From IMG/VR virus record IMGVR_UViG_3300007236_002283, positions 1-20,577 of that record: a DNA stretch of 20,577 bases. One strand, 5' to 3'. Of this stretch, positions 2,125 through 18,115 are shown piece by piece. A model generated the notes under the pieces. The model saw only the letters and a list, made by a program, of their open reading frames with translations. It did not search any database and was not told where the DNA came from. The translations under genes and the position numbers were made by a program. Position 1 is the stretch's first letter. Each line of letters opens with the position of its first letter. The stretch comes from a virus.

Positions 2125-4782
2125 ATGAGTTATATTGATGCACTGTTTGATCGCAATCGCGATCGTATACACATTGTTGGTCGTCGTGACGGTGAAAGAT
2201 ATTTCACCGAATACCCGGCTAACTATGTGTTTTATTATGATGACCCAAAGGGTAAATTTAAGTCAATATACAACACACCGGTGTCAAGATTTTCCACTCG
2301 CAGCAACAAAGAATTTCGTAAAGAAATGGCCATTCAAAAAGGCAAACAGTTTTACGAAGCCGACATCAATCCAGTATTTCGTTGCTTAGAGGAAAATTAC
2401 AAAGGTATAGACGCTCCAAAAATGAATGTTGCGTTTTTTGACATCGAGGTTGATTTTGACAAAGATCGAGGATTTTCTCCTCCCGATGATCCTTTCAATC
2501 CAATTACTGCTATCACTTTATATCTAGACTGGCTTGACAAGCTGGTGACTTTGGCTATTCCTCCCACACACATGAGCGACGAAACTGCTGAAGAAATTGC
2601 CAGTGAATTTGATAACACTTATATTTTTCGTGACGAAGGAGAACTTCTTAAAACATTCTTGAGTCTTATTCAAGAAGCAGATGTTCTCACTGGCTGGAAC
2701 AGCGAGGGATATGATATTCCGTACACTGTGATGCGGACTACTCGTGTTCTCAGCAAAGACGATACACGGCAATTTTGTTTGTGGGATCAACTACCAAAGC
2801 AACGTACTTTTGAACGATTTGGGGCAGAAAATATTACATTTGACTTGATTGGTCGAGTACACATGGATTACATGCAACTGTACCGCAAATACACATACGA
2901 AGAACGACACAGTTATGCATTGGATGCAATTCTAGAATACGAAGGACTCGAAGGCAAAACCAAGTTCGAAGGTACACTGGATCAGTTATACAATCAAAAC
3001 TTTAAGAAGTTTATTGAATATAACCGGCAAGATGTCAACGGTATTGCTGAAATGGATCGCAAATTAAAGTTTTTAGATCTAGCAAACACACTGGCACACG
3101 AAAATACAGTGTTGTTGCCAACCACAATGGGTGCTGTTGCAGTTACAGAACAAGCAATTATCAATGAAGCACACGAACGTGGTATGGTTGTTCCATCACG
3201 CCGCAGAGACGGAAACAGCAACGATACACAAGCTGCCGGAGCATATGTTGCATATCCCAAAAAAGGCATGCACGATTGGATTGGCAGCATTGACATCAAC
3301 AGTCTATATCCATCGGCTATTCGAGCTTTAAATATGGCTCCCGAAACAATTGTTGGACAATTGCGTCCAACAATGACTGACCGACATATTTACGATCGGC
3401 AGGAAAAAGGAATGAGCTTTGCAGCAGCATGGGAAGGATTGTTTGGTACACTCGAATACGAGGCTGTCATGGAAAAGCGTCGCGATACCGAACTGATTAT
3501 CGACTGGAAAGACAATACCGAAACTGTACATTCAGCTGCCGAAGTTTGGAAAATGATATTTGACAGCAACCAACCCTGGTTGTTGAGCGCAAACGGTACA
3601 ATTTTCACATACGAAGTCGAAGGTGTTATTCCAGGTTTACTAAAACGTTGGTACGCCGAACGTAAAGTGATGCAAAAGACATTGCGTGAATGTGACGAAA
3701 GCGAAAAAGAGTACTGGGATAAAAGGCAGCTGGTTAAGAAGATTAACTTGAATAGTTTGTATGGTGCTATTTTGAATCCAGGTTGTAGATTCTTTGACAA
3801 ACGCATCGGACAATCAACTACACTTACAGGTAGAGCCATAGCCAAACACATGGATGCCAAGGTAAACGAAATTGTCACAGGCGAATATGATCATGTTGGC
3901 GAAGCAATCATATACGGTGATACAGATTCGTGTTATTTCAGTGCGTGGCCGGTGTTGAAAAAAGAAGTCGAAAGCGGTGCAATGACATGGAATAAAGAAA
4001 CATGTATACAGTTGTATGACACCATTGCTGAACAAGTCAACGAAAGTTTCCCGGCGTTTATGGAGCAAGCATTTCATTCTCCAAGGTCAATGGGAGAAAT
4101 TATTGTTGGCGGCCGTGAAGTAGTTGCATCTCGAGGATTGTTTATTACTAAAAAGCGATATGCAGTAATGATTATAGACCTCGAAGGACGAAGACTTGAT
4201 GTTGATGGCAAACAAGGCAAAGTAAAAGCCATGGGTCTAGACTTGAAGCGGTCAGACACACCAAAAGTTATTCAAGACTTTTTAAGTGATGTTTTGTATG
4301 ATACTCTAACCGGTAGTACCCGAGATGAAATTGTTGAGAAAATACGCGACTTTAAGTACAAATTCAAAGAACGCCCGGGGTGGGAAAAAGGCTCCCCCAA
4401 GCGTGTAAACAACTTGACCATGTATACACAAAAGGAGCAAAAGCAAGGTAAAGCAAACATGCCCGGCCATGTCAGAGCTGGTATGAATTGGAATACATTA
4501 CGGAGAATGAATTCCGACAACTACTCGATGAAGATTATTGATGGAATGAAAGTGATTGTTTGCAAACTAAAATCAAACATGATGGGTTGGACATCGGTTG
4601 CGTATCCCACCGATGAACTTCATTTACCCGAGTGGTTTTGTGAATTGCCATTTGATGATGCAGCAATGGAAGAAACTGTAATCGACGGCAAAATTAGTAA
4701 CCTGTTAGGTGTGTTGGATTGGGATCTTAAATCAGCAACAAACACAGATAACACGTTCCAAAGTTTATTTGATTTTTCATGA
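2125..4782 (+). CDS. 43: Family B DNA polymerase, T4 gp43-like, with 3'-5' exonuclease
   Basis: This 885-aa protein is near the length of T4 gp43 (898 aa) and keeps all expected motifs in order. Exonuclease motifs: Exo I FFDIEVDF (D106, E108), Exo II NSEGYD (N192, D197), Exo III YNRQD (Y299, D303). Polymerase motifs: A DINSLYPS (D390-S397), B KKINLNSLYG (538-547), C YGDTDS (597-602, with D599 and D601), then KKRY (676-679). The C-terminal tail QSLFDFS (879-885) resembles a sliding-clamp-binding peptide, as in gp43. It should be the replicative polymerase with active proofreading, and the clamp gene lies two genes downstream. The start ATG has AGGAGA 2 nt upstream. The last 4 nt overlap the next gene (ATGA), implying coupled translation. 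Nothing in the motifs looks degraded. Confidence 0.98.
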   Translation: MSYIDALFDRNRDRIHIVGRRDGERYFTEYPANYVFYYDDPKGKFKSIYNTPVSRFSTRSNKEFRKEMAIQKGKQFYEADINPVFRCLEENYKGIDAPKMNVAFFDIEVDFDKDRGFSPPDDPFNPITAITLYLDWLDKLVTLAIPPTHMSDETAEEIASEFDNTYIFRDEGELLKTFLSLIQEADVLTGWNSEGYDIPYTVMRTTRVLSKDDTRQFCLWDQLPKQRTFERFGAENITFDLIGRVHMDYMQLYRKYTYEERHSYALDAILEYEGLEGKTKFEGTLDQLYNQNFKKFIEYNRQDVNGIAEMDRKLKFLDLANTLAHENTVLLPTTMGAVAVTEQAIINEAHERGMVVPSRRRDGNSNDTQAAGAYVAYPKKGMHDWIGSIDINSLYPSAIRALNMAPETIVGQLRPTMTDRHIYDRQEKGMSFAAAWEGLFGTLEYEAVMEKRRDTELIIDWKDNTETVHSAAEVWKMIFDSNQPWLLSANGTIFTYEVEGVIPGLLKRWYAERKVMQKTLRECDESEKEYWDKRQLVKKINLNSLYGAILNPGCRFFDKRIGQSTTLTGRAIAKHMDAKVNEIVTGEYDHVGEAIIYGDTDSCYFSAWPVLKKEVESGAMTWNKETCIQLYDTIAEQVNESFPAFMEQAFHSPRSMGEIIVGGREVVASRGLFITKKRYAVMIIDLEGRRLDVDGKQGKVKAMGLDLKRSDTPKVIQDFLSDVLYDTLTGSTRDEIVEKIRDFKYKFKERPGWEKGSPKRVNNLTMYTQKEQKQGKANMPGHVRAGMNWNTLRRMNSDNYSMKIIDGMKVIVCKLKSNMMGWTSVAYPTDELHLPEWFCELPFDDAAMEETVIDGKISNLLGVLDWDLKSATNTDNTFQSLFDFS

Positions 4783-5806: not shown

Positions 5807-6538
5807 ATGAGAGATCACTTATTGGACTTGGTCGAACACACGTTTGACTTGGGTTGTATTGACCTAGTAAAAATTTCCGGAACAGACACAGCTACAGTAA
5901 TTGACGCACTTGCTGAAGATAAAAGCGTGGTTGTATCTGGAGAATTCAGCGCTCCGGTTGCTGACTTTATTGGAACGTTTGGTATGCCAAACTTGAGCAA
6001 ACTTAAAATATTGCTTAACATTTCAGAATATCGAGAAGATGCTGAGATTACTGTACGCCGGCAAGAGCGCAACGGCGAACAAGTGCCAGTGGGTTTGCAT
6101 TTTAAAAACAAGAGCGGCGACTTTAAAAATGATTATCGGTTCATGACAGCCGAAGTAGTTGCTGAACAGCTCAAGACTGTTAAGTTTCGTGGAGTCAACT
6201 GGGATATTCAATTTGAACCATCAGTAGCATCTATTCAAAAACTCAAAATGCAATCTAGTGCAAATGCCGAAGAAGACAATTTTAAAGTTCGTGTTGAAAA
6301 CGGAAATTTAAACTTTTACTTTGGTGATCATTCAACACATGCCGGAGAGTTTGTATTTCAAACTGGTGTCACTGGTGCATTAACACACCAATGGGCATGG
6401 CCGGTGCAACGTATTATCAGTATCTTAAATCTTCCTGGCGATAAAACAATGAGTATCAGCAATGAAGGTGCAGCCGAAATTGTAGTCAATTCAGGCATTG
6501 CTCGTTATCAATATCTACTACCAGCACAGAGCAAGTAA
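5807..6538 (+). CDS. 45: Sliding clamp (DNA polymerase processivity factor), gp45-like
   Basis: This 243-aa protein is close in size to T4 gp45 (228 aa) and shows its architecture: two similar beta-rich halves, with SVVVSGEFSAPVADFIGTFG (40-59) and a following strand KLKILLNISEY in the first half. The second half has WDIQFEPSVASIQKLKMQSS, then strands KVRVENGNLNFYFGD and GEFVFQTGVTG, ending SGIARYQYLLPA. A trimeric ring of this protein tethers gp43 to DNA and, in T4, also links to late transcription. Loader genes 44 and 62, which follow gene 45 in T4, are absent here, so gene order is rearranged. The promoter just upstream is strong. The next gene's ATG follows its stop with no gap (TAAATG). 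The family is well supported by pattern and by the nearby polymerase. Confidence 0.85.
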   Translation: MRDHLLDLVEHTFDLGCIDLVKISGTDTATVIDALAEDKSVVVSGEFSAPVADFIGTFGMPNLSKLKILLNISEYREDAEITVRRQERNGEQVPVGLHFKNKSGDFKNDYRFMTAEVVAEQLKTVKFRGVNWDIQFEPSVASIQKLKMQSSANAEEDNFKVRVENGNLNFYFGDHSTHAGEFVFQTGVTGALTHQWAWPVQRIISILNLPGDKTMSISNEGAAEIVVNSGIARYQYLLPAQSK

Positions 6539-6631
6539 ATGGGTGAACTAGCAACAGCAATTAGTATACTAGCTATTATTATAGGTGGCTTTTATGTTAT
6601 TGCAGTAACAGAGATGAATAAACGTAGATGA
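6539..6631 (+). CDS. 30-aa single-pass membrane peptide
   Basis: The ATG follows the clamp stop codon directly (TAAATG), and the TGA stop overlaps the next gene's ATG (ATGA at 6628-6631). The frame therefore exactly bridges the two genes. The peptide has a short N-terminus MGELATA, a hydrophobic run ISILAIIIGGFYVIAV (about residues 8-23) and a basic end NKRR. That is the form of a type-I-like single-pass membrane microprotein, with its positive end in the cytoplasm. No family is recognised. The tight junctions on both sides and the membrane pattern argue that it is real and translated by coupling. Confidence 0.6.
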   Translation: MGELATAISILAIIIGGFYVIAVTEMNKRR

Positions 6632-8148
6632 AAACTAACCTCACCGAAGCACAAAATGACTATGCTGTTTTTTTGCCAGCAATAAGCGGATTTTATGCCA
6701 CTTATATCGGTCGACAACGACACGAAGAATATGTTCCAGCAGATCGAATGCCCACTGCTATAACTGACATGGAACAGCTGAACTGGCTTAATCCGCAAAA
6801 AGCACTGTTTCCTTATCGGTGGAGTTTGTATTCAGCTGGACATGCCAACTTGGATTTAACTAAATCAGTTCCAAAAGAAGACATGGTTCGTGATAGAGAT
6901 CCCAACAGTTTTATATTAGCTGACTCAGGCGGGTTTCAGATTGCCAAAGGTGTGTGGCCTGGTGAATGGGCCAATCCCAAATGCCCAAATGCAAAAAAGA
7001 AACGAGATGCAGTGTTGGAATGGCAAATGGGTATTGCAGATTATGCAATGACAATGGATATTCCAACATGGACAAGTACCAACCCCGAGTGGGCTAAAGC
7101 AAGCGGCATTTACAGTTATCAAGATGCAGTCACAGGCACCAACTATAACAACGATTACTGGATGGCAAATCGTTATGGCGATACCAAAATACTAAATGTA
7201 TTGCAAGGTGCCAATCATGCTGATGCTGATTCGTGGTATGAAACAATGAAGCACTATTGCGATCCCGACAAGCACGAGCGTCATTTCAATGGCTGGGCAA
7301 TGGGTGGACAAAACATGTGCGACATTCACTTGGTGTTACGCAGACTGGTTACACTGATACACGATGGATTGCTTGAACAGGGCGTACACGACTGGATGCA
7401 CTTTTTAGGTACCAGTAAATTAGAATGGGCAGTTATACTAACAGACCTACAACGTGCAGTACGAGCAAATCACAATGCCAACTTTACTATTTCGTTTGAC
7501 TGTGCAAGTCCTTTCCTTGCCACAGCAAATGGACAACTATATCATAGCATTGTCACAGAAGATAGGGAAAAGTGGAGTTATCGAATGGAACCCACTATTG
7601 ACAATAAAAAATTCTCGTCTGATCAACGTATGTTCCGCGATGCTGTGATACAAGAAGGTATTCATAAAAACTTCGAAGATTCACCAATTAGTTCAAGAAT
7701 GACAGCTGGAGATATTTGCTGGTATGGTCCAGGTGACCTAAATAAAATTGGTAAAGAAGGTAAAACTTCGTGGGACAGCTTTAGCTATGCATTGCTAATG
7801 GGACATAATGTTTGGATGCATATAGAAGCAGTGCAACGTGCCAATAGAGTATACGATTCAGGGTTGGGTCCTGACATGTTGTTGCATCCATTGGACCCAC
7901 AGTATAATGTGCGTGAATTAATTAATCGAATTTTTGAACAAAAAGATAGAAAAAAGTCCTTGCAATTGATAGACGATCATGCTAATATATGGGAAAGAGT
8001 GATAGGAACAAGAGGTTACACCGGAAAACGTGCAGTCAACGCAACAACAATGTTTAATGCACTATTTGACACTGCACAAGAAGAACAAGAGCTAGTCCAA
8101 GAACTCAACCCCCAACTGCTAGATAATCTTGAAATGACTACTGACTAG
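6628..8148 (+). CDS. tRNA-guanine transglycosylase-like / DpdA-like 7-deazaguanine base-exchange enzyme
   Basis: This 506-aa protein carries the active-site motifs of the TGT superfamily: LADSGGFQ (98-104; D99 matches the general base), DIP (144-146), LQG (192-194), GWAMGG (222-227, the usual GYAIGG) and FDCASP (290-295; D291 matches the catalytic nucleophile). An HN pair at 393-394 matches the conserved zinc-ligand His, but the CxCxxC zinc site of bacterial TGT is missing: only one cysteine lies after residue 300. Phage members of this superfamily are DpdA enzymes, which place 7-deazaguanines such as preQ0 into DNA. Lack of the tRNA-type zinc site and an extra N-terminal 90 residues fit DpdA better than Tgt. 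It is coupled to the clamp operon. FolE (17432) and a QueD-like T-fold protein (9333) lie in the same window. DNA as substrate is inference. Confidence 0.82.
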   Translation: MKTNLTEAQNDYAVFLPAISGFYATYIGRQRHEEYVPADRMPTAITDMEQLNWLNPQKALFPYRWSLYSAGHANLDLTKSVPKEDMVRDRDPNSFILADSGGFQIAKGVWPGEWANPKCPNAKKKRDAVLEWQMGIADYAMTMDIPTWTSTNPEWAKASGIYSYQDAVTGTNYNNDYWMANRYGDTKILNVLQGANHADADSWYETMKHYCDPDKHERHFNGWAMGGQNMCDIHLVLRRLVTLIHDGLLEQGVHDWMHFLGTSKLEWAVILTDLQRAVRANHNANFTISFDCASPFLATANGQLYHSIVTEDREKWSYRMEPTIDNKKFSSDQRMFRDAVIQEGIHKNFEDSPISSRMTAGDICWYGPGDLNKIGKEGKTSWDSFSYALLMGHNVWMHIEAVQRANRVYDSGLGPDMLLHPLDPQYNVRELINRIFEQKDRKKSLQLIDDHANIWERVIGTRGYTGKRAVNATTMFNALFDTAQEEQELVQELNPQLLDNLEMTTD

Positions 8149-8157
8149 GAGATAGAT

Positions 8158-8361
8158 ATGAGCGAAGCAAGAATTGATTCGTTACGTAAGAAACACTCTA
8201 AACTCAATCAAGAAATTGATGACATCGAACGTCGTGAACTAGTAGATCAACAATATATAAAAAAATTAAAAAAGCAGAGGCTAGCTCTCAAAGACGAAAT
8301 TAAACTGTTAACACTCAAGCAAGGAGCAAGCAATGGATCGTCCAGGACACGAAACAGTTGA
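8158..8361 (+). CDS. DUF465 (YdcH-like) small coiled-coil protein
   Basis: This 67-aa protein is largely a helical hairpin rich in charge: IDSLRKKHSKLNQEIDDIE, then YIKKLKKQRLALKDEIKLL. This is the standard DUF465 pattern (L..KH..L..EI, then IK.LKK..L.LKDEI). The family is common in proteobacteria and has no firmly known function. The ribosome site AGGAGA starts at the last base of the previous stop codon, 4 nt before the ATG. Its C-terminal tail (GASNGSSRTRNS) overlaps the next gene by 29 nt in another frame and is probably unimportant for the fold. It hints at a proteobacterial gene source, though phages can carry it too. Confidence 0.75.
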   Translation: MSEARIDSLRKKHSKLNQEIDDIERRELVDQQYIKKLKKQRLALKDEIKLLTLKQGASNGSSRTRNS

Positions 8362-8845
8362 CTTTTTCACAGGCATCGAAGTTGAAAAAACACCTGCATA
8401 TGGATTGCCAACACTATTTGTTGTTGGCATACAGTCTATAGAAGATATTGAAGAACACTATAGATCGAACTCATGTGAACACATTTTCTTTGGTGCCAAT
8501 CATAGCTTTTCACCTACAATAGCAGACGAAGACAGCTGGATACCCTGGGAAGACATGATCTATTATTTCCTTAAGAGAAATTTCTTATGTACTTTAGATA
8601 TTCCTATTACACATATTGAACCGTTTCACGAAACTGGATTTTGTGAGCACAATACATTTATCCCACAAATTCGTATTTCGTTGCCATACATCGAATTATT
8701 CAACTACAACACCATGATCAAACTTGACGATAAGGATTTTAACAAATCAAATCCAGGTGTTTGGTGTCATGGCTTGCACGACTTGATGGCAAGAGACAAA
8801 TTCACAGACTGGTCACAATACAAAAACGACAAGGAAGTTCAATGA
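8333..8845 (+). CDS. Unknown protein, conserved-looking, in the DpdA-like neighbourhood
   Basis: This 170-aa soluble protein starts at ATG 8333 with AAGGAG (8321-8326) upstream, inside the end of the DUF465 gene. It alternates strands and helices: GIEVEKT, a strand TLFVVGIQ, HIFFGANHSF, a helix MIYYFLKRNF, a strand CTLDIPITHIE, a strand FIPQIRISLPYI, NYNTMIKLDD, then NPGVWCHGLHDLM. Strong composition around His, Cys, Asp and NPGVW suggests a folded enzyme-like domain, perhaps half of an alpha/beta barrel. I cannot match it to a named family, and no classical metal motif is obvious. Its end overlaps the next gene (ATGA). Position directly after the DpdA-like gene and DUF465 may mean a role in base modification, but this is context only. 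Confidence 0.7.
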   Translation: MDRPGHETVDFFTGIEVEKTPAYGLPTLFVVGIQSIEDIEEHYRSNSCEHIFFGANHSFSPTIADEDSWIPWEDMIYYFLKRNFLCTLDIPITHIEPFHETGFCEHNTFIPQIRISLPYIELFNYNTMIKLDDKDFNKSNPGVWCHGLHDLMARDKFTDWSQYKNDKEVQ

Positions 8846-9332: not shown

Positions 9333-9833
9333 ATGGTCGACAATCGCACAGAAGAACGTTATTATGAATATATGTTACGCAGAACAAGAGAGGAAGATGC
9401 TAAAATGAACCAAGCAGAACGCGAACGCATCGAAGTAGCAAAGCAACACGCAGATCGCAAAATTTGGGTTACATTTCAACGCGAAGGCATTCATAGATAT
9501 CCAGCAGCAGCTGATGATCCTATGTTGGCAACCGGTGATGAATATGATGTTTCGTTTCTAGGTGTGCCACACAGACACATATTCCATTTTCGTGTATGGA
9601 TAGATGTGTTTCACAACGATAGAGACATTGAGTTTATACAATTCAAACGGTGGTTGCAGAATCTCTATCGAGATGGTGTATTGCAACTTGACTATAAAAG
9701 TTGTGAGATGATGGCAGATGACTTATATATACAAGTAGCAGGAAAATATCCTAATCGAACTGTTTGGATCGAAGTCAGCGAAGATGGAGAAAACGGTGCA
9801 ATTATACATTATGATGTTGTATCTGCTGAATAA
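9333..9833 (+). CDS. T-fold protein resembling QueD / 6-pyruvoyl-tetrahydropterin synthase (tentative)
   Basis: The order of motifs in this 166-aa protein follows the PTPS/QueD fold. EGIHRYPAA (51-59; H54) stands where the family has its AHRL zinc His. FLGVPHRHIFHFRVWIDV (75-92; H80, H82) stands where it has LHGHNY followed by strands. RDIEFIQFKRWL resembles the V.DF..LK helix, LDYKS resembles LDHK, and CEMMADDLYIQVAGKYPNRTVWIEVSEDGENG includes the helix and the final E-bearing strand (E125, E150). QueD turns dihydroneopterin triphosphate into carboxytetrahydropterin on the way to preQ0. The usual nucleophile cysteine is not at the standard place. ATG 9333 lacks a good ribosome site; ATG 9405 (residue 25) has GAGAGGAAG upstream and could be the true start (142 aa). 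This assignment is by eye and remains uncertain. Confidence 0.45.
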   Translation: MVDNRTEERYYEYMLRRTREEDAKMNQAERERIEVAKQHADRKIWVTFQREGIHRYPAAADDPMLATGDEYDVSFLGVPHRHIFHFRVWIDVFHNDRDIEFIQFKRWLQNLYRDGVLQLDYKSCEMMADDLYIQVAGKYPNRTVWIEVSEDGENGAIIHYDVVSAE

Positions 9834-11193: not shown

Positions 11194-12390
11194 ATGAGAA
11201 AATTATTTTATATGGGACTCGAAAGTTACGAAGCCCGTTACACATTACAACTCACCGAATGGAATCGTCGAGTTTTTGAACGACGAGGTATCAACTGGGT
11301 AAATGTACCCGGAACCACAATTGATGATACAAAAGCAATTAGTGTGGGGCAGGTTCTAGATGCACACGGGAGATCGTACTTTGGTATGAGTCAGCTCATG
11401 AATCTAGTGCAAATGATGCGCAACGGAGAATGTAGTGGGGAAGATGTAGTTTATTTTGAAGATATGTTCCAGCCCGGTATGGAAAGTTTACCTTACATTA
11501 TGTGTCAAATACCTGAAGAACAGCGTCCTCGAATATACCTGCGGTGTCTAGCACAAGCTGTAGACCCTGATGATTTTGTACATGTTTGGGGTATGAGCAA
11601 GTGGATGAGCTTGTATGAACAGATGTGTAATGAAATTCCAAATGTACATATTCTTGCAACCAACGAAGAAATGGTTGCACACATGCGTATTGCAAACTGG
11701 ACTGCGCCAATTTATAACATCTCGGGTTTGGCATTTGGAAAACAAGAAGTTTTAGAACGAGTTGACAACAAAGTAAAACCGTTTTTAGAACGAACAAGAC
11801 GAGTTGGATTTGCAGCAAGATTTGATCAAGAGAAGCAGCCTGATTTCTACATGGATCTAGCAGAAAGATTTAATCAGATCGATCCAACAACCAAGTTTGC
11901 AATTTTCCAAGGCGGTGCTTTACGCAGCAACAATGCTGCTTATGTTGAACGTGCAAGACAATTAGAGTCGCAAGGCATACTTGAAATTTATGAAAATCTC
12001 AGTAAAAACCAATATTACGAAATGTTGTCAGACACACGAGTATTATTCAACTGTGCCTTGCAAGACTGGGTAAGTAACACAGTGAGTGAAGCTGACACAC
12101 TGGGAGCAAATGTATTGTATCCAGCATATCGTTCGTTCCCGGAAACATTTGCAAACGACCTTGACCGGCTGTATGTGCCATGGAGCCAAGACGATGCTGT
12201 AGCAAAACTCAACAACTTGTTAGAGCAACCGCATCATAACATGGGTCTAATCAGTGACTGGACAGACGGTACAGTTGATCGAATCATAGATATTGTCGAA
12301 GGCAACGGAGAACAATGGCAGCGTAATGGAAATCGTTATAGAGATTATGTAGCTGATGCTAAATTTAATGTAAACAAAATTGAGGAATAA
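11194..12390 (+). CDS. GT-B glycosyltransferase (GT4-like)
   Basis: This 398-aa protein has a two-Rossmann plan. The C-terminal half begins VGFAARFDQEKQPDFYMDLAE (204-224), equivalent to the GR.....KG.D.li segment of GT4 enzymes, continues with TKFAIFQGG (233-241), IYENLSKNQYYEMLSDTRVLFN and ends the donor site with VSEADTLGANVLYP, where the E of the ExxxxG region binds the nucleotide sugar. The N-terminal half is the acceptor domain. No signal peptide. It likely transfers a sugar from a nucleotide donor; the acceptor could be phage DNA, a protein or a glycan. It starts a new transcription unit with its own promoter, followed by a GalE-like epimerase, which suggests that the donor is a UDP-sugar. 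Several Cys and acidic residues appear in the acceptor half without a known motif. Confidence 0.75.
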   Translation: MRKLFYMGLESYEARYTLQLTEWNRRVFERRGINWVNVPGTTIDDTKAISVGQVLDAHGRSYFGMSQLMNLVQMMRNGECSGEDVVYFEDMFQPGMESLPYIMCQIPEEQRPRIYLRCLAQAVDPDDFVHVWGMSKWMSLYEQMCNEIPNVHILATNEEMVAHMRIANWTAPIYNISGLAFGKQEVLERVDNKVKPFLERTRRVGFAARFDQEKQPDFYMDLAERFNQIDPTTKFAIFQGGALRSNNAAYVERARQLESQGILEIYENLSKNQYYEMLSDTRVLFNCALQDWVSNTVSEADTLGANVLYPAYRSFPETFANDLDRLYVPWSQDDAVAKLNNLLEQPHHNMGLISDWTDGTVDRIIDIVEGNGEQWQRNGNRYRDYVADAKFNVNKIEE

Positions 12391-12391
12391 T

Positions 12392-13363
12392 ATGAGTAAA
12401 ACTATTGCAATAACCGGTGCTACAGGATTTGTTGGTGGTGAAACATTACTGGATTTCAAGGATCACGGTCATCGTGTAATTGCAATTGACAATCGGCCGC
12501 CACCAGAACATTTACAAGGAATTGCTGATCAACAAGTTGTTGCCAGTTATGCCACTGAAGACGCATTCCGTGCTATTGAGGCAGCAGGAGTTGATGCTAT
12601 TGTACACTGTGGTGCTACTAGCTTGGTTGGGCCGAGTGTAAAAAACCCCTCTTTCTATTACGAAAACAATGTGATTGGCACCAAACGACTCATGGATTTT
12701 GTTGTTGAGCACATGCCTTCGGTGAGATTTATTTTTTCAAGTTCAAGTTCGGTGTATGGTGAACCAGTAATGGTTCCGATTTCAGAAGTTGATCCGCCGC
12801 AACCGTTGAGTCCGTATGGCGAAAGCAAACTCATGACAGACATGATGTTAGCCAGCTATCATACTGCTTACAACTTTGATTATGTGAGTTTTAGATACTT
12901 TAATGCAGTAGGCGCTGATCCACAAGGCAGGCACGGACAAGAACCACGAGCAACACACATTATTGCTAGAGTATTAGAAGGCATTAGAGACGGTGGTGAA
13001 TTTACTCTTTTTGGAAACACATATCCAACCCCAGACGGTAGTTGTGTGCGAGACCATGTGCATGTTGCTGACTTAGCACGAGCACACAGAATGGCCCTAG
13101 AGTCTGACTTTGAAGGCGGCGTATACAATGCCGGCATCGGTCACGGCGTTTCTAATCTCGAAGTAATCAAGATGGCTGAAGAAGTAACTGGACAAAAACT
13201 CAATTACAAAATTGGTGAGGCACGTCCGGGAGATCCATCGCAGTTGACAGCAGTCAATGATCGACTTGTCAATCAAGGATGGGCAGCCGAATACACGTTG
13301 CATGATATGATAACACATGCGTGGAGTTGGTACATGAAGTCACACAACCAGGTAGCCGCATAA
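12392..13363 (+). CDS. galE: NAD-dependent UDP-glucose 4-epimerase-like (GalE/extended SDR)
   Basis: The start is taken at ATG 12392 with GAGGAA (12382-12387) upstream; an earlier in-frame start at 12380 would overlap the previous gene. The 323-aa product has the extended SDR signature: GATGFVGG (9-16) for NAD, D33 at the end of beta 2, a serine run SSSSS (116-120), and YGESK (142-146; Y142, K146). Then FRYFNAVGADP follows, the usual GalE sequence leading into the sugar-binding half, with RDHVHVADLARAH and EARPGDPSQL. It should interconvert UDP-glucose and UDP-galactose, or a close nucleotide-sugar pair. It is one gene after a glycosyltransferase, so it likely prepares its donor or that of a neighbour. 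Length and motifs are standard. High family confidence; exact sugar unknown. Confidence 0.9.
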   Translation: MSKTIAITGATGFVGGETLLDFKDHGHRVIAIDNRPPPEHLQGIADQQVVASYATEDAFRAIEAAGVDAIVHCGATSLVGPSVKNPSFYYENNVIGTKRLMDFVVEHMPSVRFIFSSSSSVYGEPVMVPISEVDPPQPLSPYGESKLMTDMMLASYHTAYNFDYVSFRYFNAVGADPQGRHGQEPRATHIIARVLEGIRDGGEFTLFGNTYPTPDGSCVRDHVHVADLARAHRMALESDFEGGVYNAGIGHGVSNLEVIKMAEEVTGQKLNYKIGEARPGDPSQLTAVNDRLVNQGWAAEYTLHDMITHAWSWYMKSHNQVAA

Positions 13364-13364
13364 C

Positions 13365-14273
13365 ATGGCCGGAGTAATGAAAAATCTCAAACACTTGCCA
13401 TATTCAGGAGCAGGAGCAGTTTCTGATCCCATGCTTGGTGCTGTGATTGATCAAATTGTAGAAGATAAACAAGTGACTGCTTGGTTAAATGATCGAGATA
13501 TTCATCATCAATTTGTGAGTGATTATAGAAACTGGATATTGGCAAGCGAGCTTAATCAATTTCACGGACTTGGTAATTTTCCTGTAGCAGTCACAGGACA
13601 AGGCACTACAGAAGGATTTGATAAATTTTATTTAAAAAATCGCAATCGGCGTTTTCGTTGTTATCGAGGAGAATACATGTATCATGCAGCAGCTTGGAGA
13701 AACTATTTTCCAGATTGGTGCAGAATCGAGGACGACGAAATTCGATCCAACGATGCAGTTGTTGTTAGTATGCCGTTTAGTGACACTGGAGACATACACC
13801 CAGACATGTCAAGGGTATTAGATGAATGTGATCGTTTGGGTGTTCCAGTGTTGGTTGACTGTGCATTTTACGGAATTTGCAACGGAATTGAATTTGACTT
13901 TGATCGAGAATCAATCACCGATATTACTTTTAGTCTCAGCAAAACTTTTCCCATCAGCCATGCTCGAACCGGAATGCGATTGACTCGAACAGATGATGAC
14001 GATCCCATGTTGGTGCATCACAAAACCAACTATGTGAATAGAATATCTGCCGGTATAGGTATTGAACTAATGTCGTTGTACAGTGCCGATTACAATACCA
14101 AGAAATGGCAGCAAACACAGCTAAAGTTTTGTCAACAGCTCGATGTTGAGCCAAGCAAATGTGTGATATTTGGTCTTGGTGACGACAACTGGAACGTTTA
14201 CAATCGAGGAAGGTCGAGCAATCGTTTGAATTTTGCTGATTATCTATATGGAGGAGAATTACCCAATGAATAA
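13365..14273 (+). CDS. PLP-dependent aminotransferase-like protein (fold type I)
   Basis: This 302-aa protein follows the class I aminotransferase order. There is a glycine-rich loop TGQGTTEGFDKF (77-88), SMPFSDTG (135-142) in place of the NP..PTG loop, VPVLVDCAFYG (160-170; D165 and Y169, which contact the PLP ring), and a SLSKTFPISHARTGMRL segment (190-206), where K193 is the likely Schiff-base lysine and R201 binds phosphate. It is shorter than most such enzymes (about 400 aa), and the C-terminal small domain seems reduced, so it may be a compact or divergent form. It sits between GalE and a secreted protein, 1 nt after the GalE stop, and may make an amino-sugar or amino acid derivative. 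ATG 13365 lacks a clear ribosome site. The family is well supported, but activity and substrate are not. Confidence 0.7.
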   Translation: MAGVMKNLKHLPYSGAGAVSDPMLGAVIDQIVEDKQVTAWLNDRDIHHQFVSDYRNWILASELNQFHGLGNFPVAVTGQGTTEGFDKFYLKNRNRRFRCYRGEYMYHAAAWRNYFPDWCRIEDDEIRSNDAVVVSMPFSDTGDIHPDMSRVLDECDRLGVPVLVDCAFYGICNGIEFDFDRESITDITFSLSKTFPISHARTGMRLTRTDDDDPMLVHHKTNYVNRISAGIGIELMSLYSADYNTKKWQQTQLKFCQQLDVEPSKCVIFGLGDDNWNVYNRGRSSNRLNFADYLYGGELPNE

Positions 14274-14865
14274 AGCATTTGCACAACTATTATTTTTACT
14301 GACACTATTTGTGTTCAGCATGTTTACTATTACAGCAAAGGCCGATGAACCCGAGCTTACTATTTGCGAAGGACAGTTTGCATTGTGTGCAGCAAGTGCT
14401 TGTAAGCCAACCGGAGGCACAGTTGTCAACAGCCAAGGTGTAGAATATCCAGAAGTGATTTGCACATGTCCTATCTTAAAAGGTAAAAATATTGCTGACC
14501 TTAATGCAGGAAATATGCAAGGTTCGTGCGAGCCCACAGACGAAAATCATGTATGGAGTACATTTTGGCCACGGTTTGAATACCCAAGACAACAGAATGA
14601 TTTTTCACACAATCCAAAAGACATGCGAGCAAGCATACAAGAATGTCCAGCAGAACTCAAGCAAGGATACAATGCATCAAACTGTTTTAGTTGGAACTGT
14701 GAAATCGACGCCAACGGCTTAGCTATTTGTTCCTGCCCAATGGGACAGTCACCTGAAGATACACCATTCTTAATTGAAACATTACCTGAAGAGTTTCCGC
14801 AACGTTGTTTTGAACATCCAGTGAGCTTACCGTTAGAGACTATTAAAAAACTTGAATTAGAATGA
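14266..14865 (+). CDS. Secreted or periplasmic cysteine-rich protein with duplicated six-Cys module
   Basis: ATG 14266 is chosen for GGAGGAG (14250-14256) upstream; an earlier start at 14233 would add 11 unlikely residues. The 199-aa product starts with a Sec signal peptide: a short N-region, hydrophobic LLFLLTLFVFSMFTIT (8-23), and an AKA cleavage site near 24-26. The mature part has 12 cysteines, arranged as two similar sets: 34, 41, 46, 66, 68, 88 and 127, 140, 145, 155, 157, 181. Each ends with a CTCP or CSCP pair then a distant single Cys. It likely forms disulfides outside the cytoplasm. No lipobox is seen. A small secreted Cys-rich phage protein could act on the envelope, in superinfection exclusion or as a decoy. 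No family known. Confidence 0.8.
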   Translation: MNKAFAQLLFLLTLFVFSMFTITAKADEPELTICEGQFALCAASACKPTGGTVVNSQGVEYPEVICTCPILKGKNIADLNAGNMQGSCEPTDENHVWSTFWPRFEYPRQQNDFSHNPKDMRASIQECPAELKQGYNASNCFSWNCEIDANGLAICSCPMGQSPEDTPFLIETLPEEFPQRCFEHPVSLPLETIKKLELE

Positions 14866-15602
14866 ATAGTATTATTGACATAAATTTGCTTACTGAAAAA
14901 TACGAGGCAAAAGATTACGCACTTGACTACAGCAAAGGCACACCTGTGCCGTGGATTGCATTTGACGATTTTTTACCTCAAGATTTACTAACAGCAGTAC
15001 AAAACGAAATAGACGAAATACCGTTGCATATTTGGGATAGCTTTACACGCAACGGTAGTTACATGAGAGAATGTAACAACATGAAATTTAGTCCGTTGAT
15101 ACGTGAACTAGTAATGAATTTTAACAGTGGAGAATTTGTTCATTGGTTAGAAGGAATCACAGGATTAGAAAAACTAATTCCAGATCCGCATTTGATTGGT
15201 GCTGGATTGATGAGATGTGGCCCAGGTAATAGTCTTAAATTACATACTGACTTTAATTGGAACGAACAGTTACAATTGAATCGAAGTCTAAGCATGATTT
15301 TGTACGTCAGTCGAGAATGGGAGGATGAATGGGAAGGCGGACTTGAATTTTGGAGTTTTGATCGTAAAGAACTGTTACACAAAATTCATGCAAAACCCAA
15401 TCGCTTGTTGTTATGGAACTATGATGAAAATCTTGTTCACGGACACCCTAATCCAATTGCATGTCCTGAGTCAGCCAGCCGCGACGGATTAAGATTGTTT
15501 TATTTTCATAGCAATGCAAAACCAACCACAACTCCGCATCGCAGTCTTTATTGGTTTGATGAATCCAGCGGCGAAGCATACGATCGTAGAGAGAACCGGT
15601 GA
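14862..15602 (+). CDS. 2-oxoglutarate/Fe(II)-dependent oxygenase (prolyl-hydroxylase-type fold)
   Basis: This 246-aa protein begins in the previous stop codon (ATGA) and shows a facial triad in order: HTD (128-130; H128 and D130), then a distal His in VHGHPNP (192-198; H193 most likely) and R211 in RDGLRLFYF, which would hold 2-oxoglutarate. The core strand RSLSMILYVSREWEDEWEGGLEFW (141-164) is the usual jelly-roll region of P4H-type phage oxygenases. Such enzymes hydroxylate a protein, nucleotide or small molecule. Common in marine T4-like phages, where the substrate is rarely known. It stands between a secreted Cys-rich protein and a P-loop-like protein in a sugar cassette. The family is firm; target unknown. 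Confidence 0.85.
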   Translation: MNSIIDINLLTEKYEAKDYALDYSKGTPVPWIAFDDFLPQDLLTAVQNEIDEIPLHIWDSFTRNGSYMRECNNMKFSPLIRELVMNFNSGEFVHWLEGITGLEKLIPDPHLIGAGLMRCGPGNSLKLHTDFNWNEQLQLNRSLSMILYVSREWEDEWEGGLEFWSFDRKELLHKIHAKPNRLLLWNYDENLVHGHPNPIACPESASRDGLRLFYFHSNAKPTTTPHRSLYWFDESSGEAYDRRENR

Positions 15603-16420
15603 CGGATTATTGTACTGATCAATTTTTATTAACTAGATACCCAAACGGTGCTGGCGGCAAATTTATACTAACAAGTCTATGTCAATTTGATGCTGTTGCA
15701 CATTGGGATGCTGAAGTTGACCAAAAACAGCGTGAGTATTTGGATTGGTTTTCTTCAATTTGGCCCGATCAACTCAATCAATGGGTAACATTTGAACCAA
15801 ACCAACCTTGGGAATTAAATTTTTATAGTCGACGTTGGTTTCGTAACAACAACCTTACATGCAAAGAATTTAATCAACACGTTGATCGTGATGCCAACAG
15901 TTATTTTCATCAACAATGGCAACAAAAACACATCATAACAGATCACTGGCACAAAACTACTGTGCCTGATTTTTTTCAAAAAGCTCGTTGGATTGAGTTA
16001 TTACTGCCTTGTCAAGATCTCGAAACTTATAAAAAACTTGTGCGTAATAAACTATATCTTTGGCAAGAGGATTCTCAAACAGTAATCAGTACTATGGATC
16101 ATCCTGATTATGCGTGGGATGAAAAAACAAGAAAAAATTCAATTGCATATCAAAATCAGTACGAACTTACAGACCATGACACATACGACGATTTCTTTTA
16201 CAACTGGTTACTTGAGCAGCATTGGGTCAAGCCTTTTGTCAATCAAAAGCCCGATCCTCAAGCAATTGCTTCAATTGAACTAGGCCAATTGATTGATGTC
16301 GATGGATACATTGCATTAATGAAACAACTTTCTGACTACTTTGGAGAAAGCGGCCTAAATACAGATCAATTAAAACACATGCATACCATTTGGAAAGAAA
16401 AAAGTCAAATTGATGATTGA
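15599..16420 (+). CDS. Unknown protein with P-loop-like N-terminus (GTG start)
   Basis: A GTG start overlaps the previous stop (GTGA at 15599-15602). The 273-aa product begins with DQFLLTRYPNGAGGKFILTS (7-26): strand, glycine-rich loop with a Lys (K21), then helix, as in a nucleotide- or PAPS-binding loop. Later parts are rich in Trp, His and acid: FSSIWPDQLNQWVTFE, HIITDHWHKTTVPDFF, and a helical C-terminus. No sure catalytic motif is seen; a sulfotransferase- or kinase-like role is possible. It shares the loop-first layout with the 10094-10975 gene, but I do not see clear sequence identity between them. It sits tightly inside the sugar cassette. Confidence 0.6.
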   Translation: MTDYCTDQFLLTRYPNGAGGKFILTSLCQFDAVAHWDAEVDQKQREYLDWFSSIWPDQLNQWVTFEPNQPWELNFYSRRWFRNNNLTCKEFNQHVDRDANSYFHQQWQQKHIITDHWHKTTVPDFFQKARWIELLLPCQDLETYKKLVRNKLYLWQEDSQTVISTMDHPDYAWDEKTRKNSIAYQNQYELTDHDTYDDFFYNWLLEQHWVKPFVNQKPDPQAIASIELGQLIDVDGYIALMKQLSDYFGESGLNTDQLKHMHTIWKEKSQIDD

Positions 16421-17417
16421 AGATATTTCACAATTTACCAATGATGGATACTGGTGGGAAGAAGCCGGGCTTGATCAATCTCCTTCAATGCTGATTAAAA
16501 TGTATCACGAACACGATGGACACACACGCTGGCAAATGCCAGACATTGAAGCACTTGAGGGTTGGAAACAAGCTCGGAACATATTCTTGTTTGAATGTGA
16601 AGGTTGGGCAGATGTATCAAGACTTCGAGATCCGCGAGTACACTTGTTTCAATCCGGAAAACTTGATCACCCACGTTGGCACTTTTTTCCTTTTTGGATC
16701 GAGTATGTGCAACGGGCCGAAAAAGAAGTAAATTATCATCAACTGCTTGACTATACACAACAACGTGAATATTGGTTTGATGCACTACTAGGTGCACCAC
16801 GCACTGCAAGGCGTTGGTTGTACAATCGAATAGTCAACAGCGAATATCGTGATCGTTTTATTCTAAACATGTATGGTCAAGAAGCTGTACACGGCACCGA
16901 ACATTATAATGTTACAAACTGGTTGACCGGTCATGATTTAGATGACAGCTACAGCTATCGTACCGAAGTTGACGGATTACCACACGAAGTGAATATTGAT
17001 AGTTTATTGCCTTATCGAATATACAATCAATCTTGGTTCAGTGTGATTAGCGAAACACACGACCATGCCAGTATTCCCATTATAACAGAAAAAACAGCCA
17101 AGTGTCTGTTGGGACGTAGACTTTTTATACATTTTGGAAACACTGGTATTATTGAACTGCTAAAGCAAGTGGGATTTAAAACATTTGATTGTGTGATTGA
17201 TGAAAGCTATGACCAAGAACCTGATCCTGACCGACGACTAGAAATGGCTTGGCAACAGGTAGAACTAATTATGCAACAGGATCCAAAAGAAATAATCCAG
17301 AAATGTCAAAAAGTATTTGACCATAACCAGGATATTGTGTTAAACTACAATTATGATAGCTATATTATCAAAGAGTTGGCACGCCTAGATACAAATAACG
17401 GCAATCCACTGCCTTAA
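16413..17417 (+). CDS. Glycosyltransferase-like protein, GT10 (fucosyltransferase)-like C-terminus
   Basis: ATG 16413 is preferred; a TTG at 16410 is one codon upstream in the same frame. The 334-aa product overlaps the previous gene by 8 nt. Its C-terminal half has WFSVISETHD (208-217), then IPIITEKTAKCLLGRRLFIHFG (221-242), then LLKQVGFKTFDCVIDESYDQ (249-268). The EKT..CL.GR..I..G segment is like the donor-binding EK.....a...g..PV..G motif of GT10 alpha-1,3-fucosyltransferases, and the GFKTF.....DESYD phrase is common in marine phage proteins of this type. No signal peptide. It likely transfers a sugar. A fucosyl donor is not implied by the sequence. GC-rich or foreign-looking traits are not evident. 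Assignment by pattern only. Confidence 0.6.
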   Translation: MIEDISQFTNDGYWWEEAGLDQSPSMLIKMYHEHDGHTRWQMPDIEALEGWKQARNIFLFECEGWADVSRLRDPRVHLFQSGKLDHPRWHFFPFWIEYVQRAEKEVNYHQLLDYTQQREYWFDALLGAPRTARRWLYNRIVNSEYRDRFILNMYGQEAVHGTEHYNVTNWLTGHDLDDSYSYRTEVDGLPHEVNIDSLLPYRIYNQSWFSVISETHDHASIPIITEKTAKCLLGRRLFIHFGNTGIIELLKQVGFKTFDCVIDESYDQEPDPDRRLEMAWQQVELIMQQDPKEIIQKCQKVFDHNQDIVLNYNYDSYIIKELARLDTNNGNPLP

Positions 17418-17431
17418 CATCGGAGAAACAA

Positions 17432-18115
17432 TTGAGTAAAGCAGAACAAATTAAAGCAAAATTAGAAGACGCTGGTATTAGATACTGGGCAGGCGACAAC
17501 ATTTCGGAAGTCCTACAAAAGGGCGACAAAGAAGCACTTATTGAAGATGCTACAGCGGCATTCGAAGGTGTGTTAGACGCACTTGTAATTGACCGACACA
17601 ACGATCCTAATTCACAAGGCACAGCAAGACGTCTTGCTAAAATGTACTTTAATGAAATTATGGCAGGACGCTACGATACACGTCCTCCTGCAACAGCATT
17701 TCCAAATGATGGCAATGACCGCTATCCTGGTATGCTAGTTGTACGCAGCGAACTTAAATCAATGTGTTCACATCATCACCAGCCAGTAAACGGTGTAGCA
17801 TACATTGGTATTATTGCTGCAGATAAACTAATTGGTTTGAGTAAGTACACACGTTTAGCACAGTGGTGTGCAAGGCGTGGTACGCTGCAAGAAGAACTTG
17901 CAATGGATATTGCACGTGAAATCTCTCAAGCAACAGACAGTGAGCATGTAGGTGTTTACATTCAAGCCACACACGGTTGCTGCGAAAACAGAGGCATTAT
18001 GGCACATAGTTCACTTACACAAACAACTGTGCTAAAAGGTGCATTCGAAAAAGATACAGGCACAAAGAAAGAGTTCTTTGACAACATTAAACTACAACAG
18101 GAGTTTGCTTGCTGA
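17432..18115 (+). CDS. folE: GTP cyclohydrolase I, phage-type
   Basis: The start is TTG 17432 with GGAG (17422-17425), 6 nt apart. The 227-aa product shows the FolE T-fold: MCSHHHQPV (111-119; C112 with H114/H115) and THGCCENRG (180-188; C183), which together hold zinc. GLSKYTRLAQWCARRGTLQEEL (135-156) is the highly conserved loop for catalysis and GTP binding. It turns GTP into dihydroneopterin triphosphate, the shared first step to folate, biopterin and 7-deazaguanines. CSHHHQ replaces the usual CEHH motif, and CCENRG is a variant of the usual C..-RG end. It is followed with 1-nt overlap by a HIT gene. In phages FolE usually means preQ0 (queuosine/DpdA) chemistry, supported here by the TGT-like and QueD-like genes. 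Assignment is firm. Confidence 0.95.
   Translation: MSKAEQIKAKLEDAGIRYWAGDNISEVLQKGDKEALIEDATAAFEGVLDALVIDRHNDPNSQGTARRLAKMYFNEIMAGRYDTRPPATAFPNDGNDRYPGMLVVRSELKSMCSHHHQPVNGVAYIGIIAADKLIGLSKYTRLAQWCARRGTLQEELAMDIAREISQATDSEHVGVYIQATHGCCENRGIMAHSSLTQTTVLKGAFEKDTGTKKEFFDNIKLQQEFAC

Follow-up and report, generated by a model that had tools for sequence, protein, structure and literature searches.

How, and at what time, does a TGT-fold enzyme find phage DNA? DpdA places 7-deazaguanines in phage DNA and protects it against restriction. The window, that is the whole stretch of DNA analysed here, is an IMG/VR virus record of 20,577 bases, which raises the question through the following ORF and the residues that it encodes:

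6628 to 8148, plus strand: DpdA-like DNA-guanine transglycosylase, 506 aa, ATG start; predicted from sequence and fold
6922 to 6924, plus strand: D99, which starts DSGGFQ at residue 99
7498 to 7500, plus strand: D291, within FDCASP, which begins at residue 290
7717 to 7719, plus strand: C364, remnant metal-site residue
7804 to 7806, plus strand: H393, remnant metal-site residue; HN at 393 to 394
Further residues of the same protein: D144, Q193 and GWAMGG at 222 to 227

An earlier note on this DNA had picked out the ORF for its TGT motifs, and DSGGFQ with D99, GWAMGG, FDCASP with D291 and the HN at 393 to 394 are all found there. The ORF is not a chance one, because at least 600 IMG/VR stretches encode relatives and the key residues are invariant. 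Specifically, D99, D291 and C364 do not vary among 32 family members less than 80% identical to each other, and H393 is kept in 31 of these 32, so that the former metal site has lost all but one Cys and the His. The cysteines of the protein lie at positions 119, 211, 231, 292 and 364 only, which bears out the statement of the note that CxCxxC is absent; from the zinc site of tRNA Tgt (CxCxxC...H), C364 and H393 alone are left. The two catalytic Asp residues and the GG motif that characterise the TGT superfamily (PF01702) are represented by D99, D291 and GWAMGG. In E. coli Tgt the catalytic Asp residues are D89 and D264, and D264 is covered in the Tgt profile alignment with the window family.

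Kinship was judged by profile comparisons, Tgt, DpdA1, DpdA2 and the window family being too divergent for a trustworthy tree alignment. As a single sequence, window DpdA has no match in Pfam or NCBIfam and does not reach the PF01702 gathering score, and sequence searches of the PDB gave no match; a single PHROG hint (phrog_10773, E 0.021) points to the PHROG that contains nt-1 DpdA2 itself. The earlier note had proposed a profile search against DpdA groups and Tgt, and in this search the DpdA2 part stood and the DpdA1 part did not. Against the DpdA2 profile, that of the family scores a probability of 96% and E 4.7e-9 over 201 aligned columns at about 20% identity, and D99 and D291 are aligned to the DpdA2 aspartates. 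Bacterial Tgt is matched more weakly (probability 34%, E 4e-4), and 9g DpdA1 shows no similarity in hhalign (probability 0.4%), which rules out membership of the window family in DpdA1. At E 1.9e-9 the family profile also matches a TGT-like protein encoded by Vibrio phage GR7B, in which CxCxxC is retained. This TGT-domain protein (L085:9692-11308, with CxCxxC..HN) connects the window family with both DpdA2 and Tgt in profiles and is a possible intermediate in zinc-site loss. DpdA3 and DpdA4 are reportedly enzymes of Campylobacter phages or archaeal viruses; two Campylobacter phages searched for a window-family match gave none at E<=10.

The predicted structure points in the same direction. An AlphaFold2 model of window DpdA (pLDDT 87), built on a 45-row alignment without phage-record sequences, retrieved 13 PDB structures at E<=1e-3, all of them TGTs. 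Its viral structure matches include nt-1 DpdA2, at E 6e-10, and named phage TGTs; the best of them is a 596-aa protein, the same length as the homolog in Vibrio phage 2.275.O. Regarding the zinc cysteines, whose loss the note had taken as distinctive, CxCxxC is absent also from the aligned DpdA1 (9g) and DpdA2 (nt-1) sets, and its absence is thus normal for phage DpdA; the control bacterial Tgt proteins keep it in 81 of 81. DpdA has been shown to be required for 7-deazaguanine in CAjan DNA, and phage nt-1, which bears DpdA2, has dPreQ0 in its DNA (Hutinet et al., PMC6884629). Because of the DpdA2 profile link, the TGT fold and the occurrence of relatives within 7-deazaguanine gene sets, sequence and model support the view, already taken in the note, that the window protein is a DpdA-like transglycosylase and not a tRNA Tgt. 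Its nearest relative by sequence is phage DpdA2.

Could the protein nevertheless be a tRNA-guanine transglycosylase with which the phage increases queuosine-type tRNA modification during infection? The TGT fold and the catalytic residues would agree with such a role, and some phages have queuosine genes without DpdA (PMC6884629). We consider it very improbable, since the link to the Tgt profile is weak and that to DpdA2 much stronger, the zinc site is lost, dpdA is fixed in a polymerase-clamp cluster (79 to 80 of 80 loci) and the DpdA tail has a polymerase-like clamp peptide. The last two points concern the following features:

2125 to 4782, plus strand: family-B DNA polymerase (gp43-like), 885 aa, ends NTFQSLFDFS
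5807 to 6538, plus strand: predicted sliding clamp, PCNA fold; best PDB match PCNA, E 7.7e-12; PHROG 12062 (unknown function)
6539 to 6631, plus strand: 30-aa hydrophobic ORF (MGELATAISILAIIIGGFYVIAVTEMNKRR), its stop overlapping the dpdA start as ATGA
8333 to 8845, plus strand: conserved neighbour, 170 aa, found at 75 of 80 loci
9333 to 9833, plus strand: conserved neighbour, PHROG 17812, found at 66 of 80 loci

Judging from its structural model (pLDDT 93), for which PCNA structures are the best PDB matches, the protein upstream of window dpdA is a sliding clamp. A clamp homolog lies upstream of dpdA on the same strand in all 80 IMG/VR loci, and the polymerase does so in 79 of the 80. The genes in the clamp position upstream of the DpdA homologs of PA5oct (L082:13912-14658, 38% identical to the window clamp) and, less certainly, Sinorhizobium phage Phosso (L083:14184-14906, 23% identical) are annotated as 'structural protein' or 'virion structural protein'. 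Another protein of the window, of 386 aa at 746 to 1906, has GGHGDA and DAGIHC and is reminiscent of an amidinotransferase/deiminase; it has no Pfam match and is found at 7 of the 80 loci.

The earlier note had seen in this arrangement a new coupling of base exchange to the replication fork, made through a microprotein between clamp and dpdA. Its idea of fork coupling has found support and its two reasons have not. Adjacency to a clamp is not new: in phage 9g dpdA adjoins the clamp, and a clamp homolog is present in 66 of 80 DpdA1 contigs from IMG/VR, the median offset between it and dpdA being 953 bases. The 30-aa ORF is not conserved, and the clamp-dpdA gap in relatives holds varied genes or none, which leads us to reject the microprotein as the coupling element. 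The slot itself (6539 to 6627 in the window) is occupied among relatives by membrane proteins, radical-SAM-like fragments or unknowns, or is empty, and resembles a small gene-insertion hotspot. What speaks for the fork is found in the tail of DpdA, and neither this motif nor the invariance of C364 was part of the note:

8005 to 8067, plus strand: conserved DpdA tail block GTRGYTGKRAVNATTMFNALF, residues 460 to 480
8053 to 8067, plus strand: FNALF, PIP-like candidate clamp-binding motif, DpdA residues 476 to 480
4756 to 4770, plus strand: FQSLF of the polymerase, residues 878 to 882, counterpart of the DpdA FNALF
DpdA tail peptide with FNALF: GTRGYTGKRAVNATTMFNALFDT
Polymerase tail peptide: NTDNTFQSLFDFS

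Residues 462 to 491 of window DpdA have pLDDT below 50 and are predicted to be disordered, and the conserved block lies in or beside this segment. The F-x-x-[LMF]-F of the DpdA tail matches what we take to be the core of the PIP box, and polymerases of the same genomes end with NTFQSLFDF or similar. In the syntenic set, 69 of 78 DpdA proteins carry F..[LMF]F within their last 60 aa and 74 of 79 polymerases carry it within their last 12; it is found at the tails of none of the other conserved neighbours. Among 1757 same-strand ORFs the motif is found in the last 14 residues of 104, namely 77 polymerases, 26 DpdA and one other. It occurs in 24 of 29 representatives (0.52 expected after shuffling) and in 0.7% of other ORF tails. 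Bacterial Tgt tails have it in 0 of 81 cases and a looser form in 1 of 81. About two thirds of the window family have an acidic extension after the motif, which is therefore not terminal.

In T4, the C-termini by which clients bind the clamp are hydrophobic-acidic, closely alike and interchangeable (PMC2988020), gp43 ends with SLDFLFG, and alpha-glucosyltransferase binds the clamp (PMC13216743). By its sequence, window DpdA likewise has a hydrophobic-acidic C-terminal motif in common with the replicative polymerase. The parsimonious reading is that window-family DpdA would dock on the clamp. Our literature search found no statement linking DpdA to a sliding clamp.

The two tails also correspond in other lineages. 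Vibrio phage 2.275.O pairs a polymerase ending NNTDLFDW with a DpdA ending NNNDLFGW, and the PA5oct polymerase, which finishes with HFDSLFGW, is accompanied by a DpdA with SFNSLFDVD in its tail. In three related contigs (L028, L030 and L053) LF is changed to FF in both polymerase and DpdA, probably as one event. DpdA2 phages have polymerases ending ATLEGLFG or ATLEDLFS and DpdA2 ending SSLEELFG or ASLEDLFA, so that DpdA2 relatives in IMG/VR outside the nt-1 group carry a polymerase-like SLEDLF tail, as in the pairing of the window family. Such a tail is lacking in the DpdA2 of nt-1 and in the two relatives closest to it (L092, L093); as nt-1 DNA has dPreQ0, the tether is not essential for DpdA2. 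Regarding DpdA1, a hydrophobic residue followed by Phe lies within the final six positions of 69 of 77 proteins, most commonly in the form of a terminal QELF, and such an end is found in 7.8% of all ORFs in this comparison and in about 3% without DpdA. The 9g-type polymerase has no such C-terminal motif, and the case for DpdA1 is therefore built from the end motif and clamp adjacency. What the tail suggests for the window family appears to hold for DpdA2 as well and, with less force, for DpdA1.

An enzyme working after replication and untethered would need another use for its tail, such as a dimer contact or an interaction with the packaging machinery, and a coincidental likeness to the polymerase. 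That nt-1 DpdA2 works without the tail, with dPreQ0 in nt-1 DNA (PMC6884629), is in line with this explanation, as is the report that the glucosylation ratio in T4 is not determined by the binding of alpha-glucosyltransferase to the clamp (PMC13216743). We nonetheless regard it as unlikely, for the motif is almost exclusive to polymerase and DpdA and follows the polymerase tail lineage by lineage. Coupling to the fork is supported because the DpdA tail motif matches the probable clamp-binding tail of the polymerase; at the level of sequence, this gives strong support to what had been a guess and puts it on a solid, testable basis.

Which base would be installed is suggested by the pathway genes, of which the window contains one:

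17432 to 18115, plus strand: FolE, GTP cyclohydrolase I, first enzyme of the 7-deazaguanine pathway

There is no PTPS in the window at the usual site after HIT and no QueD was seen in it; the window ends before the position at which relatives have QueE. We examined 24 long contigs of the family from IMG/VR. FolE is present in 21, a PTPS/QueD-type protein in 18, and QueF or a convincing QueC in none; both are absent also from PA5oct and Phosso. A single weak match of QueC type (G022) exceeded the Pfam cut-off solely in combination with neighbouring matches. The order dpdA, FolE, (HIT), QueD-like, QueE on one strand recurs in most relatives (18 regions examined in detail), and the best NCBIfam matches of the pathway genes are QueE and QueD models, below curated cut-offs. 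FolE, QueD and QueE lead to 7-carboxy-7-deazaguanine, and QueC is needed for preQ0 (PMC13329287). Because FolE, the QueD-like protein and QueE are present, usually with neither QueC nor QueF, the most likely installed base, as predicted from gene content, is 7-carboxy-7-deazaguanine or a product such as its decarboxylated form, not preQ0.

The QueD-like protein has HC..(L/I)HGY where QueD has HGH. Its predicted zinc ligands are thus altered, which makes the biosynthetic route uncertain: the protein could act as QueD or in a later step such as decarboxylation. The HGY form of this PTPS/QueD paralog is seen in all 15 window-clade contigs where the paralog was found (L109-L123, e.g. L109:13094-13609), and paralogs also lie in PA5oct (L351, 3496 onward) and Phosso (L352, 757 onward). 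PA5oct has one HGH copy and one HGY copy, and the HGY paralog may be a distinct enzyme travelling with window-family DpdA. Between the replication genes and FolE, at 11194 to 17417, the window encodes a glycosyltransferase, an NAD-dependent epimerase, an aminotransferase-like protein and a 2OG-Fe(II) oxygenase, which could supply further decoration of the base or of surface structures.

As far as the base alone is concerned, preQ0 or preQ1 might be drawn from the host pool and installed, with FolE serving folate; clamp tethering would be compatible with this. Many hosts make preQ0, and the DpdA homolog of Vibrio phage 2.275.O lies beside QueF, the transporter YhhQ, QueC, FolE and QueD. This phage is, however, the only one among the three cultured relatives examined that has QueC, QueF and YhhQ, and in most relatives QueE and the QueD-like protein accompany dpdA while convincing QueC and QueF are absent, as described above. 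We find host supply doubtful, if somewhat less so than the untethered enzyme.

Based on these results we favour, with a probability of about 0.75, a DpdA-type DNA-guanine transglycosylase tethered to the clamp behind the fork. Guanine in phage DNA would be exchanged for a 7-deazaguanine derivative by window DpdA, with D291 as the nucleophile and D99 as the general acid/base. The FNALF peptide would dock on the phage's own PCNA-like clamp, at the site that the polymerase probably uses via its FQSLFDF tail, and would hold DpdA behind the replication fork. For the base, the phage would rely on its own FolE, QueE and QueD-like protein, in most cases with no QueC.

A polymerase-like clamp tail would be a simple answer to how DpdA finds phage DNA. 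It would also annotate a very large protein family in uncultured phages, whose cultured relatives, PA5oct-like Pseudomonas phages included, carry the label 'hypothetical protein', and would predict an unusual base for window-family phages. We lean slightly towards a broader view, in which clamp docking is general to phage DNA-guanine transglycosylases, several divergent DpdA groups each having a peptide for their own clamp, exchange is confined to new phage DNA behind the fork, and carboxy- or unsubstituted 7-deazaguanine is used here without QueC. If this is true, general docking would account for the way in which an enzyme of the TGT fold gets to phage DNA and not to tRNA.

Among known systems, bacterial tRNA Tgt (PF01702) has in common with the window family the TIM-barrel fold, the two catalytic Asp residues and the GG motif, but in all 81 controls CxCxxC is retained and the tail motif is lacking. 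DpdA2 of nt-1 and its relatives has the same catalytic Asp layout and fold, the same lack of CxCxxC and a link to 7-deazaguanine genes; the window family differs in its size of about 506 aa, in keeping C364 and H393, in adjoining the clamp and in genomes that are usually without QueC. DpdA1 of 9g and its relatives is alike in the position of dpdA beside a clamp gene, in the QELF end of most members and in the absence of CxCxxC. It is unlike the window family in profile, phage 9g carries the complete gene set for preQ0/G+, and the 9g clamp is of another, beta-annotated type, different from the PCNA-fold clamp of the window. The clients of the T4 clamp gp45 (the C-termini of gp43, gp55 and gp33, and alpha-glucosyltransferase) present a similar short hydrophobic-acidic C-terminal clamp epitope, and alpha-glucosyltransferase is, moreover, a DNA-modifying enzyme that binds the clamp. 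None of these clients is a base-exchanging transglycosylase, and window-family DpdA would extend clamp-coupled DNA modification, as known from T4 alpha-glucosyltransferase, to base exchange.
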